DNA from: a virus
Length of the DNA: 45,209 bases
Reading direction: 5' to 3' (one strand)
Virus record (IMG/VR): IMGVR_UViG_3300029787_000080
Span: 5,901 to 51,109 of that record
Shown here: in pieces, positions 17,310-39,224 of the stretch
How positions within the stretch are numbered: position 1 is the first letter of the stretch
Layout of the letters: the number at the start of each line of letters is the position of its first letter
The notes under the pieces: model-generated
Told to the model about the DNA's origin: nothing
The model's database searches: none
The model's input: only the letters and a program-made list of their open reading frames with translations
Position numbers and translations under genes: made by a program

Positions 17310-19706
17310 TTACGCCTCCAATGCGGTTACGCGCGCCTTGAGCTCAGTCATTTCAGTTTCGAGAGTTTCAATCTTGGCAATCGCCTCTTGCAAGGCGCCG
17401 GTCAGCAACGGCACTAGCTTGGATTGGTCGATACCTTGCATGACAGGAATAGTGTTGCCGTCTCCGTCTAGCTTGTTATCGCCAGCAGAAGTGCCGTCAG
17501 GCGCATCGCCATCATCAATCTCTTGCTGTGTCCAAGTCTCAACTTCGTTGTGGGTGCCAGTGACAGCCTCCGGCACGACAGCCTGCGCCTCGTGTGCAAT
17601 GAAGCCGTCAACCGTTGTGTCGGCGTCAGCAATAAAGTTAAACCGTTTCGGTGCAAGTGCCTTCACACGGTCGATGGCACCGGTCATGTACACGACCGCT
17701 TCTTTGAGGCGGTGGTCGGAGGAGGTGTTGTAGCTAGTCGATGAGCCGCTGGTTCTAATGGTTCCGACTATACCGTTTGTATTACCAAAAACACCGTGAG
17801 TTTCGCTGCCTGTGCTAGAGCCAAAAGACGTAAAACTGCCGTCACCGGTATTAGATATGGCCGTCCCCGGCACACTACTACTCGGAAAACTTGTGCATTT
17901 CACCAGCAACCGTCCGCTGGAGTCGAGACGCATACGTTCCGTGCCACCAGACAAGCCATCTTTGAACGTCAAAACAGAAGAAGTGCCGTACTGAAATGAC
18001 AATTCGGTAGCACTACCAACAACTCTGCCAACTTCTGTGTCACTGTCTTTCAAGCTGAGTATTGAGCCGTCATCACCGTTGAGAGTTAAGCCGCCAAAGC
18101 CGCTGTTGCTTACTGGCGAAATCGTCCCGATACCGACGGAGCCATCGCTGGTGATTCGCATTTTTTCCGAGTTATCTACTGCGAAGATAATGCGGCTGTT
18201 ACTACTAGCGTTTGCAGTGTCCGCTGAAATCTGGATACTTCCAGAGGTATAATCAGCGTTAATTTCTGAGAAATTATTTGATGCGCCGGTATCAGTGAGC
18301 CGGATAATTGGCGAAGCCCCAGAAATTTCTAGGACTTGTGAAGGCGAGTTCGTCCCAATCCCAACTTTATCGTTTGTGGCGTCAACAAAAAACATGTTTG
18401 CATCGTTTTTAGATTCAATGCGCGTATTGAAAGCCTCGGCGTCCTCATTCAATACAGTTTCAGTTGGAAGAGCTTCAAGTCGACTGAACACTGAACCAGC
18501 AGTCATTGTCTTTACTCGCAAGGTTCCGTCTTCACTGCCGTCGCTGACATCATTAGCTACACAGTCAATAACGCAAGCTCGTGTCTCTTCTGCCGCGTCA
18601 TTATCGAACATAAAGCGTATGCGCCCGATAGTGTCATCATCAGCAGGACTAGCACTGTCACGTTTCAAATCAAGTCGTGGGCCGGCGCTGCTATCGTCAT
18701 CAGTTGATAACAATGTAAGTTGCGCATTGTTGTCAGCAGTAGTGATCGTCACCTGGCCGCTCACTGTGCCGCCGGTCAGCCCTAACGCACCTATGTCGGA
18801 CAGCACTTCACTGGCTGATCGACCTTCAACACTTGTGCCATCAATGCGGAGAAAATCATCATCCACCACATTTGCGTTACATTGAAGGACATTGGTATTT
18901 GAGATACCCGTGCTCAATGTCGCCGTGGTCGTGATGGCTGTGCCGTTCAAAGTCATGGCATCCGCTTCGAGAGTACCGTCGATATCGGCGTTACCACTGA
19001 CATCAAGGCTCCCCGCATCTAACTCACCTGTCAAAGTGATGTTACGGAAACTGGCGACGTCTTTGTTTGAATCTACTGTGACGACCTTGTCTGCCACAAC
19101 TACGCCAGTGGAAGCACCTGTATCGCTATAGTTAAGCTCGGCGGCCGTGGCCGTGACGCCGTCCATAATGTTCAACTCGGACGTCGTGGCTGTGACGCCG
19201 TCCATAATGTTCAACTCGGACGTCGTGGCTGTGACACCATCCATGATGTTCAGCTCGGCGGCCGTGGCCGTGAGGTCGGTTATTTGTGAGACAAGAAGAG
19301 ATGCTTTCTTGACTGCGGCTGAAGCGCCGGCGCCGTCAGCAAAAATCCAAGCTATCTCACCGTTAACAAGCGTGTCATTTCCGCCTGAGCCTTGTGTGAA
19401 GATGACAGATTGACCCGACCTATTGTCTACCAGATACACTTTGTCCTGGTCGTTCGGAGAGATAGTAATTGTGTTTGTGCCGGAGGGTGAGCCGCCAAGA
19501 ACGAGCACTCGAAACCCTCCGTCGGATAGCACACCATCAGTTGTGGACAGAGTGTGCGAAGTGCTCGATAGAGTGATCGCCCCAACTCCGGCGATAGCCC
19601 GGTCGAAAATGTCGAAGTTATTGTTTGTCGTAGTGCCCCAGGTGCCGGCCTGATCGCCACTGCCAGGCTTTTCTACTCCAAGGTTACCGGTATAGGTTGA
19701 GACCAC
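17310..19706 (-). CDS. Tail fibre with C-terminal S74 intramolecular chaperone, 798 residues
   Basis: GTG start behind AAGGAG. The shaft carries tandem ELNIMDGVTATTS repeats (about residues 145-195) and long Gly/Asn/Asp-rich trimeric beta structure (KVGIGTNSPSQVLEISG). From about residue 660 it has the S74 signature SSDHRLKEAV, then DGFIAHEAQAVVPEAVTG, and ends in a trimeric coiled coil (ETLETEMTELKARVTALEA). In this family the chaperone helps the shaft trimerise, then cuts itself off at the Ser of the SDxRLK motif (Ser663 here). The fibre probably determines host attachment. Confidence is high for a fibre with S74. Confidence 0.92.
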   Translation of the reverse strand: MVSTYTGNLGVEKPGSGDQAGTWGTTTNNNFDIFDRAIAGVGAITLSSTSHTLSTTDGVLSDGGFRVLVLGGSPSGTNTITISPNDQDKVYLVDNRSGQSVIFTQGSGGNDTLVNGEIAWIFADGAGASAAVKKASLLVSQITDLTATAAELNIMDGVTATTSELNIMDGVTATTSELNIMDGVTATAAELNYSDTGASTGVVVADKVVTVDSNKDVASFRNITLTGELDAGSLDVSGNADIDGTLEADAMTLNGTAITTTATLSTGISNTNVLQCNANVVDDDFLRIDGTSVEGRSASEVLSDIGALGLTGGTVSGQVTITTADNNAQLTLLSTDDDSSAGPRLDLKRDSASPADDDTIGRIRFMFDNDAAEETRACVIDCVANDVSDGSEDGTLRVKTMTAGSVFSRLEALPTETVLNEDAEAFNTRIESKNDANMFFVDATNDKVGIGTNSPSQVLEISGASPIIRLTDTGASNNFSEINADYTSGSIQISADTANASSNSRIIFAVDNSEKMRITSDGSVGIGTISPVSNSGFGGLTLNGDDGSILSLKDSDTEVGRVVGSATELSFQYGTSSVLTFKDGLSGGTERMRLDSSGRLLVKCTSFPSSSVPGTAISNTGDGSFTSFGSSTGSETHGVFGNTNGIVGTIRTSGSSTSYNTSSDHRLKEAVVYMTGAIDRVKALAPKRFNFIADADTTVDGFIAHEAQAVVPEAVTGTHNEVETWTQQEIDDGDAPDGTSAGDNKLDGDGNTIPVMQGIDQSKLVPLLTGALQEAIAKIETLETEMTELKARVTALEA
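19135..19272. repeat. 39-bp tandem repeat in the tail fibre
   Basis: Three consecutive 39-base units (19147, 19186, 19225) plus partial flanking units encode ELNIMDGVTATTS thirteen-residue repeats. The two central units are nearly identical at DNA level, so slippage could change fibre length. Confidence 0.9.
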
Positions 19707-35964: not shown

Positions 35965-35980
35965 GTGCGCGCTGCTCTCT

Positions 35981-36084
35981 TCTATATGGCGCAGGGCGCA
36001 GGCAAGCCTGCAAGTTTTAGTATGGCGCCCTTGGACCAGGGCGCAGGGCTCTCGATCCTTCTATCTGGGACAGGGCGCAGGGCC
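35981..36084. repeat. First group of GCGCAGG heptamer repeats
   Basis: GGCGCAGG occurs at 35988, 35995, 36040 and 36074, twice following a TATAT or TATCT stretch. A larger array of the same unit lies at 37139-37255 beyond the two intervening genes. Candidate iterons or recombination remnants. Confidence 0.7.
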
Positions 36085-37081: not shown

Positions 37082-37138
37082 TCTCTTCTCGGCTCGAGGC
37101 CCAGGCATCGAGGATCGAGCACCACCCGCGCCGGTTCT

Positions 37139-37255
37139 CGGGCGCAGGGCGCAGGGCGCAGGATCGAGCGCCACATATATCGGGCGCGGGGCGCAGGGCG
37201 CAGGGCGCAGCAACTCTTTCTATATATCGGGGGCGCAGGGCGCAGGGCGCAGGCC
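37139..37255. repeat. Array of GCGCAGG heptamers with TATATATCGG spacers
   Basis: Three clusters of about three units each: 37141-37162, 37183-37210 (first unit variant) and 37232-37253. The second and third clusters are each preceded by ATATATCGG. Regular 7-base spacing within clusters plus A+T-rich spacers is the look of replication iterons. Confidence 0.85.
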
Positions 37256-37681
37256 CTAGCTTCGCGGTGCGAGAACCGTGGTCCGCAGCCCCTCAACCAC
37301 GTCCCTCAACTCTCCCTCCCAGATCGGTAGGCTCGGATCGCGGTCCGTGGAACTCGAAACGTGGTTTTTTTGCAACTCGCTAGGAAGCCCATACAGCGCG
37401 CTGAATAAAAATAGGCATGAGGTCGAGGGATCGCGGAGCAAGAACGCTGAGCGGCCTCCTGAGAGCGAATGAGAGGCATTCCAAGCGAGTTGCGACGGCC
37501 TCGGTCGAAATTGGCTAACTTTTCCTACCTTCAACTCTAAAAAAAGCGACTGCCTGTCGAGCACCAGATAGACATCAGGGACTCCCGCTCCTGCTCTGTT
37601 TTCCATCCTCTGGCAAAAAGTTCCTCTCGGTAGAGTTGCCTTCAATGACTTCCACAGGTTTTGCTCCGGCCCCGCTGCCAT
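37256..37681 (-). CDS. VRR-NUC-like PD-(D/E)xK nuclease, 141 residues
   Basis: Core motif: E27 (MENRAG), GVPD (D36), then LFLELKVGK with E49-x-K51, and QLAWN after a short gap. This is the VRR-NUC / small resolvase-type arrangement that cuts branched or flapped DNA. The length suits a stand-alone phage nuclease. It overlaps terS by 107 bases in another frame, so both come from one message. It might trim or resolve replicating DNA before packaging (inference). The C-terminal third looks unrelated to the core and is not conserved-looking. Confidence 0.78.
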   Translation of the reverse strand: MAAGPEQNLWKSLKATLPRGTFCQRMENRAGAGVPDVYLVLDRQSLFLELKVGKVSQFRPRPSQLAWNASHSLSGGRSAFLLRDPSTSCLFLFSALYGLPSELQKNHVSSSTDRDPSLPIWEGELRDVVEGLRTTVLAPRS

Positions 37682-38123
37682 TCAATTTCTCCAGTCTATA
37701 CATAAGCTCCTCGCGAGAGAGTTGATCAAGCTCGTGCGTGTGGTGTGTTTCGCGCTTATCAATCGCGATGCCACCCATGGCGGCACGAATTTTTTCAGCG
37801 TTGATCGCCGCGGAAAATTGACCGGCATCTTCTGCTTCGAGCGAGAGTTCCCGAAGCCGCTTCAATTGGCCTTCCAGTGTGACGCCGTATTTACGCTGCC
37901 GCTCCTCTCGGAGTTCGGCAATGGCAGCAACCACGATCGGGTAGTCGCGCCCATTTAATAGCTTTGTCGCCATGACATCGGCTGTCTTGGCTGAATATCC
38001 GGCTGCAATGGCGCAGCCTTTGCGTGTTGATTCACCGTCAACAAATTTCTGAACGAAGATCACCTGCTTGTCGGTAAGCCCTCCATTCCGTTCTTTTTGG
38101 CTCTTAAACTTCTTGTCTGCCAT
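37575..38123 (-). CDS. terS: Terminase small subunit
   Basis: 182 residues. LTDKQVIFVQKFVDGE...GCAIAAGYS at 16-45 is the DNA-binding helix-turn-helix signature of Terminase_2-type small subunits, followed by ATKLLN and a helical oligomerisation part (VTLEGQLKRLRELSLEAEDAG). It recognises phage DNA and loads TerL. It is unusual that about 2.9 kb, including a plus-strand gene block, separate it from terL. The C-terminal 35 residues overlap the nuclease gene. Confidence 0.86.
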   Translation of the reverse strand: MADKKFKSQKERNGGLTDKQVIFVQKFVDGESTRKGCAIAAGYSAKTADVMATKLLNGRDYPIVVAAIAELREERQRKYGVTLEGQLKRLRELSLEAEDAGQFSAAINAEKIRAAMGGIAIDKRETHHTHELDQLSREELMYRLEKLNGSGAGAKPVEVIEGNSTERNFLPEDGKQSRSGSP

Positions 38124-38229: not shown

Positions 38230-38365
38230 GGGCTCTTCTTTCGGGTTGAGACAGGCTGAGACAGCCTTGGACAGGGTTGAGACAAATTCCTGTGAACAGC
38301 TCCGAAAATAACAGGAAATCGTATCATTTGACAAATGGCGTGTAATTTTCCGCGTCTCGGGCTCG

Positions 38366-38702
38366 TTTTTGTCTCAGGAGGGGTGGCGACGAGAAGTTTC
38401 AATAAAATCAGTAGGATCACATCTTAAAACCGAACTCTGACTAATAGCTCAGGGCAAAATTTGAACGGATTTTGTTGAGTTTTTTGTCTCAGGTTTTTCT
38501 TTTTTGTCTCAGATGAGGCGAGACATACAAACCGGACTTCGCTTCATTGGCATGAAAAATTCTGGGAGAACAATAACTTACCTATATTTGTGAAAATACG
38601 TTCTCAAATTTTGCCCTGAGCTATTAGTCAGAGTTCGGTTTTAAAATATCAAACCATTGAAAACTCTACATATTCTCGTCGCCACCCCTCCTGAGACAAA
38701 AA
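38366..38702. repeat. Large two-part inverted repeat (30 + 41 perfect base pairs per arm)
   Basis: Outer arms 38366-38395 / 38673-38702 (30 bp, perfect) and inner arms 38424-38464 / 38604-38644 (41 bp, perfect), with 28 diverged bases between outer and inner parts on both sides and a 139-base centre. The equal spacing lets both parts pair in one long cruciform. TCG flanks both ends (38363-38365, 38703-38705), which could be a chance match or a 3-base target duplication. Confidence 0.95.
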
Positions 38703-38846: not shown

Positions 38847-39224
38847 ATGAACAAGCAAGACCAGATCATCAAGAACCTCGTTGCACGGACCGAGGCCCTC
38901 GGCGGCACCCATCACCGCACCGACTACACCTACAGCGGCGTCGTCTCGCTGAGTCTGGAGATCGGCAAGTCGCACGCCATGGTGGTTATCGGTAAGCGCG
39001 GCGCGATCCAGTATGCCTCGACATGGTTCGAGGATCAGTACGGCGACTGGATCAGCGTGCCTGACAAGAAGAGCCGCCCGAGCTGGGCTCGTGCCGGTGA
39101 GCTACGCGCGTGGTTCTGGCAGGTCAGCCGCGACATGCACGGCGACGAGGAAGCCATGCGCCGCGTCCACCAGTTTCACAACACCGCTTCAATCAACTTC
39201 AACGACAAGATGGTGGCGGCCTAA
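38847..39224 (+). CDS. Hypothetical protein, 125 residues, first of the small-gene operon
   Basis: Start at ATG 38847 behind CGGAGC, after the palindrome. Mixed alpha/beta: a helical start (QDQIIKNLVARTEAL), a strand pair (YSGVVSLSLEIGKSHAMVVIG, GAIQYASTWF), then a helical end (RAGELRAWFWQVSRDMHGDEEAM). Soluble. No family is recognised. Likely made early because it follows a regulated promoter region at the head of a dozen tiny genes. Confidence 0.65.
   Translation: MNKQDQIIKNLVARTEALGGTHHRTDYTYSGVVSLSLEIGKSHAMVVIGKRGAIQYASTWFEDQYGDWISVPDKKSRPSWARAGELRAWFWQVSRDMHGDEEAMRRVHQFHNTASINFNDKMVAA

Follow-up and report, generated by a model that had tools for sequence, protein, structure and literature searches.

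The junction between the small terminase gene and the early genes

The window analyzed here, i.e., the whole 45,209-nucleotide stretch, is part of a 51,109-bp IMG/VR virus record and represents a contig of a tailed marine phage. It carries genes for the large and small terminase subunits (TerL and TerS), portal, major head protein, SU10-type adaptors and a DNA ejection protein, and DNA polymerase and helicase genes were recognized by inspection upstream of it. The nearest named phages based on TerL are 023Pt_psg01, DSL-LC04 and the Pelagibacter phages HTVC027P and HTVC023P (52-60% identity), and a DNA similarity search against a phage collection gave no match. Three genes placed between the replication and the structural genes of this contig matched Redoxin (125-691; PF08534), Gram-negative porin (1030-1998; PF13609) and, weakly, an outer-membrane beta-barrel (2158-2745), respectively; the porin was detected in none of 12 related records searched, and the genes of this region could be phage-borne or represent a join with host DNA.

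Near the other end of the window, TerS (37575-38123, minus strand), a member of the Terminase_2 family (PF03592, E 1.2e-7, above the curated cut-off; phrog_51, E 5.8e-15), and the first early ORF (38847-39224, plus strand; 125 aa, no named family) diverge from a 723-bp intergenic region. The early ORF had no PHROG or Pfam match, and using it as query for nearer relatives of the phage found none, but homologues were found in two related contigs (L065, 40% identical, and L038, 27%), in both cases on the opposite strand, upstream of TerS. The intergenic region is filled by a 337-bp inverted repeat (38366-38702), which was thus correctly predicted to be gene-free; an Rfam search returned nothing.

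The anatomy of the repeat is exactly as originally described, with each side consisting of a 30-bp and a 41-bp block separated by a 28-bp gap (i.e., 71 perfect pairs per side) around a 139-bp centre. Outer arm A (38366-38395, plus strand) starts with TTTTTGTCTCAGG, has an iteron at 38370 and is complementary at 30/30 positions to outer arm A' (38673-38702, minus strand), which ends with TGAGACA (38692) followed by AAAA. Inner arm B (38424-38464, plus strand) pairs at 41/41 positions with B' (38604-38644, minus strand), and the left half of the centre between them (38465-38603) is T-rich and contains TGTCTCA (38485 and 38505) and CGAGACA (38519). The trinucleotide TCG flanks the repeat on both outer sides. 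Since the runner-up among perfect inverted pairs in the 45 kb is only 14 bp long (spans up to 1 kb), the repeat is far beyond chance expectation, and its predicted single-strand fold reaches -100.3 kcal/mol vs. a mean of -33.4 for shuffled sequences (z -17). The left and right gaps (38396-38423 and 38645-38672) share 11/28 bases in inverted register, a value reached by 9% of random pairs drawn from the same intergenic region and hence not significant; that is, the gaps are equal in length, with no relatedness detectable beyond the background.

The repeat is embedded in a cluster of short motifs, and those in the centre and the left flank had not been part of the original prediction. The TGTCTCA/TGAGACA motif occurs 13 times in the window vs. 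6.6 expected, and 7/13 copies are located within 452 bp (38247-38698), compared to at most one in any other 460-bp stretch. TGTCTCA represents the iteron type of the window, with one copy at each outer arm end. On the TerS side, an array on the plus strand (38247-38284) has TGAGACA at 38247, 38257 and 38278 (spacing of 10 and 21 bp) and a degenerate copy between them; direct repeats are thus present both in this array and in the TGTCTCA pair at 38485/38505. The iterons adjoin an A/T-rich tract, an arrangement that is clearer in the relatives described below. Altogether, the array and the repeat (38247-38702) occupy the positions 124-579 bp upstream of the TerS start (38123).

An iteron site at the same junction in related phages

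To place the repeat in context, we fetched 80 contigs whose TerL is 76-84% identical to that of the window. Among the loci searched, homologues were found for TerS in 53, for the nuclease-like gene after TerS in 57 and for the GP88 gene in 31, and several early genes had homologues upstream of TerS on the opposite strand. Most loci for which the region upstream of TerS was available carry tandem 9-bp iterons, usually three, that conform or nearly conform to TGnnnCA; two or three copies in the opposed orientation come next, ~30-60 bp further on, and a T-rich tract is located on the side of the early genes. Exact tandem triples were found at one place per locus. The iteron type is phage-specific and common to the direct and the opposed arrays: in a permutation test with 32 non-redundant loci, the best downstream reverse-complement match to a phage's own iteron averaged 6.34/7, compared to 5.02 (sd 0.125) when iterons were permuted among phages, and the automatically assigned register of the repeat unit, which is a few bases off in some loci, works against this result. 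One of the relatives (L046) has GTGTCTCAG as its iteron, i.e., the type of the window.

Near-identical phages allowed the site to be compared over short evolutionary distances. In the pairs L042/L043, L063/L068, L085/L086 and L046/L040, TerS is 93-100% identical and the iterons differ in all copies at once. Phage pairs with 98-100% identity in TerS (163/163 residues, 175/176 twice, and 172/176) have different iterons, with the changes being concerted and located inside conserved flanks. The early module of one of these phages also encodes a 376-aa protein that appears HNH endonuclease-like by eye (L063:1174-2304), for which tblastn gave no match in the near-identical partner phage, whose iterons differ.

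In many relatives, the iterons are additionally flanked by two inverted elements of ~20-25 bp, with an outward consensus of about ACCCGTAGAAAACACTATAGG and, where the pair is recognizable, a spacing of mostly 180-207 bp (227 bp in one case). The two flanking arms resemble each other more within a phage (19.8/33) than between phages (16.9/33; permutation p = 5e-5), in a hand-picked set of 12 that is not fully corrected for shared ancestry. The window's B and B' enclose the T-rich iteron centre at a distance of 180 bp from each other; their likeness to the relatives' flanking pair is positional only. The best match to the flanking CACTATAGG motif in the window's intergenic region, located at 38651 in the right gap, scored 7.5 bits vs. 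16-36 bits for the members and is not significant. The possibility that block B represents the relatives' core sequence in diverged form was rejected by a PWM scan. Further, none of the relatives has long perfect arms near TerS comparable to those of the window, and the iteron arrangement and spacing in the window are unlike theirs. The proposed equivalence of the repeat with the relatives' site is based on its location, the iteron cluster and the spacing of B and B', as opposed to sequence homology of the arms. Among the named phages, HTVC023P and DSL-LC04 have a recognizable TerS and, by eye, repeats (ACTAGGAAA) and inverted TATAG-bearing elements near it but, unlike the window, are without long perfect arms; HTVC027P has no comparable array just upstream of TerS.

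Packaging, replication or regulation

Collectively, these data suggest that the repeat is probably an enlarged start site at which this phage packages or copies its DNA, as opposed to a jumping element. More specifically, and tentatively, we favor the hypothesis that it is part of an enlarged cis-acting site between TerS and the early genes, most likely an SPP1-like pac site, a hypothesis supported by the position of the repeat at the very junction where the relatives have a dedicated, repeat-built site beside TerS. Under this hypothesis, the lineage would keep, between TerS and the early genes, a site that combines opposed arrays of iterons with a T-rich tract and flanking inverted elements, and where the terminase complex would first engage the concatemeric phage DNA, as it does at SPP1 pac. 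A ring of TerS DNA-binding domains may wrap the repeat-phased, bent DNA with little base specificity, and the inverted part of the site would have grown, in the window phage, to 71 perfect pairs per side. A replication origin and a site used by a DNA-processing enzyme, both named in the original prediction, remain the best class of explanation, to which the adjacency of TerS and the iteron site of the relatives can now be added.

The closest described design is the pac site of SPP1 and its relative SF6. The SPP1 site covers promoters and the beginning of the small terminase gene, and its direct repeats form three sets, whose conservation in SF6 is only moderate; SF6 TerS can substitute for SPP1 TerS, its DNA-binding domain has little base specificity, and bent DNA has been proposed as the pac signal of these phages (PMC4737164). 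The site of the window resembles this design in its placement where the small terminase gene begins and in having direct repeats that vary between related phages; it differs in that the SPP1/SF6 sites are built of direct repeats, without opposed iteron arrays or an inverted repeat with 71 bp per side, and in that the packaging start and TerS binding have been demonstrated for SPP1/SF6 (PMC4737164), whereas both are predicted for the window phage. The predicted curvature of the window, with a strong peak near 38488 and the peaks of the region ranking third to fifth in the window, may fit the SPP1-like model, bearing in mind that the wedge table was provisional and that the region is T-rich. The change of iteron type while TerS stays constant is as expected if TerS reads the shape of the DNA, and it is also expected if another protein reads the iterons. 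That TerS recognizes the iteron type by its bases is argued against by pairs of phages that differ in their iterons but have the same or nearly the same TerS.

A second known design offers a resemblance only. T7 processes its concatemers through a hairpin end, and the window, which stems from a podovirus-like phage, likewise has an inverted repeat close to its packaging region; unlike for T7, neither a genome end nor a terminal repeat was found for the window phage. We also considered whether contig breaks near TerS and TerL mark genome ends, but their positions scatter instead of falling on one base, and we read them as assembly breaks.

The main rival, and a close one, is that the repeat is a replication origin, a possibility that we consider somewhat less likely: an initiator would bind the iterons and melt the T-rich tract, and the arms would either adopt a cruciform shape or indicate the two directions in which replication proceeds. 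Iterons beside an A/T-rich tract are a hallmark of iteron origins, and it is the occurrence of such an arrangement here that makes an origin the main rival. The restriction of exact tandem triples to one place per locus and the concerted changes of iteron type, as if matched to a cognate protein, would also be accounted for, as would the minimum of the cumulative GC skew at ~40 kb, next to the site, although the latter is confounded by the change of gene direction that coincides with the change in skew. Known iteron origins (e.g., lambda ori and those of iteron plasmids) similarly have short phased repeats beside an A/T-rich tract, of a type that differs between relatives. However, such origins do not usually include a giant inverted repeat, the iterons at our site are opposed, no initiator was recognized among the tested genes adjoining the site (a subset of the early genes), and the constant neighbour of the site is TerS. 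Alternatively, the site could be a divergent promoter or operator, where a phage regulator would bind the iterons and control both the early genes and TerS through a symmetrical operator. This appears rather unlikely to us. While the genes do diverge on both sides and the outward CACTATAGG elements of the relatives flank the iterons close to where TerS and the early genes start, 71 perfect pairs are more than an operator requires and no regulator was identified. Moreover, CACTATAGG is rare outside the site in the loci scanned and not recognizable in the window, and no single-subunit RNA polymerase that could explain it was found, in a search whose control was also silent.

The packaging and replication start sites of many abundant marine phages are unknown, and a site that can be recognized across relatives by opposed iterons beside TerS provides something concrete to aim at. 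The finding that iteron types change in concert while TerS does not change poses, in turn, a testable question, that is, whether another protein reads the iteron type or TerS reads the shape of the DNA, as proposed for SPP1-like phages.

Perfection of the arms and other repeats

It was originally predicted that arms this perfect indicate either active maintenance or recent mobility. Of these, maintenance stays within the class of explanations that we favor, and mobility, including the suggestion of a MITE-like element, is unsupported. A 337-bp MITE bounded by terminal inverted repeats of 30 bp and flanked by a duplicated TCG target would account for the perfect ends and the matching flanks, but a 3-bp flank is a coincidence at the 1/64 level, and the terminal motif TGTCTCA also forms an array beyond the boundary of the element (38247-38284) and is thereby linked to the local site. 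Further, we searched for other copies of the arms, and no second copy exists in the record, no exact arm string was found in IMG/VR, and exact strings gave a single, unrelated 20-mer match by chance in GTDB genomes. Based on this lack of copies (of exact strings in the case of IMG/VR and the GTDB genomes), we consider a mobile element very unlikely. An assembly artefact, i.e., a fold-back or chimeric join, is conceivable for any metagenomic contig such as this one; nonetheless, a fold-back chimera would not be expected to have two perfect blocks interrupted by equally long, non-matching gaps around a unique centre, and the genes on either side of the repeat, TerS and the early genes, have counterparts on either side of the site in the relatives, which makes this the least probable explanation. 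A protelomerase-type telomere was set aside since the palindrome is interrupted by the 139-bp centre.

How the perfection might be maintained is suggested by the two-block structure. Perfect blocks around unrelated gaps of equal length would be hard to obtain from one recent duplication, and the 71 invariant bases seem to exceed what the nearby, degenerate iterons need. Perfection is probably kept by intrastrand template switching or by conversion between the arms, through a hairpin or cruciform, which would correct stretches independently and leave the 28-bp gaps untouched. Template switching is known to homogenize imperfect inverted arms in yeast, where the arms are shorter (PMC8604942). It is intriguing, if doubtful, to hypothesize a family-wide site in which the iteron type repeatedly switches in all direct and opposed copies at once while TerS stays constant, with the opposed, complementary architecture being conserved and not the bases themselves; the repeat of the window would then be an extreme product of homogenization, possibly extruded as a hairpin for terminase or replication enzymes. 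More generally, the giant repeat suggests that arm homogenization acts on iteron sites of this kind.

Other repeats were also observed. In related phages, identical perfect palindromes of 22-26 bp (e.g., AAAACCTGCGTACGCAGGTTTT) occur in pairs, 320-510 bp apart and ~0.7-2 kb upstream of TerL (L008:3345-3712, L010, L013, L028, L029, L053:920-1478 and L056:3275-3635). In the window, two G/C-rich clusters of GGGCGCA-type repeats with TATAT tracts (35979-36083 and 37132-37255) flank the GP88 gene on both sides, between the large and small terminase genes. Finally, four tandem 39-bp repeats (19131-19286) are located near the end of the gene for a 798-aa protein (17310-19706), which has a Peptidase_S74 chaperone domain and is probably a tail fibre.
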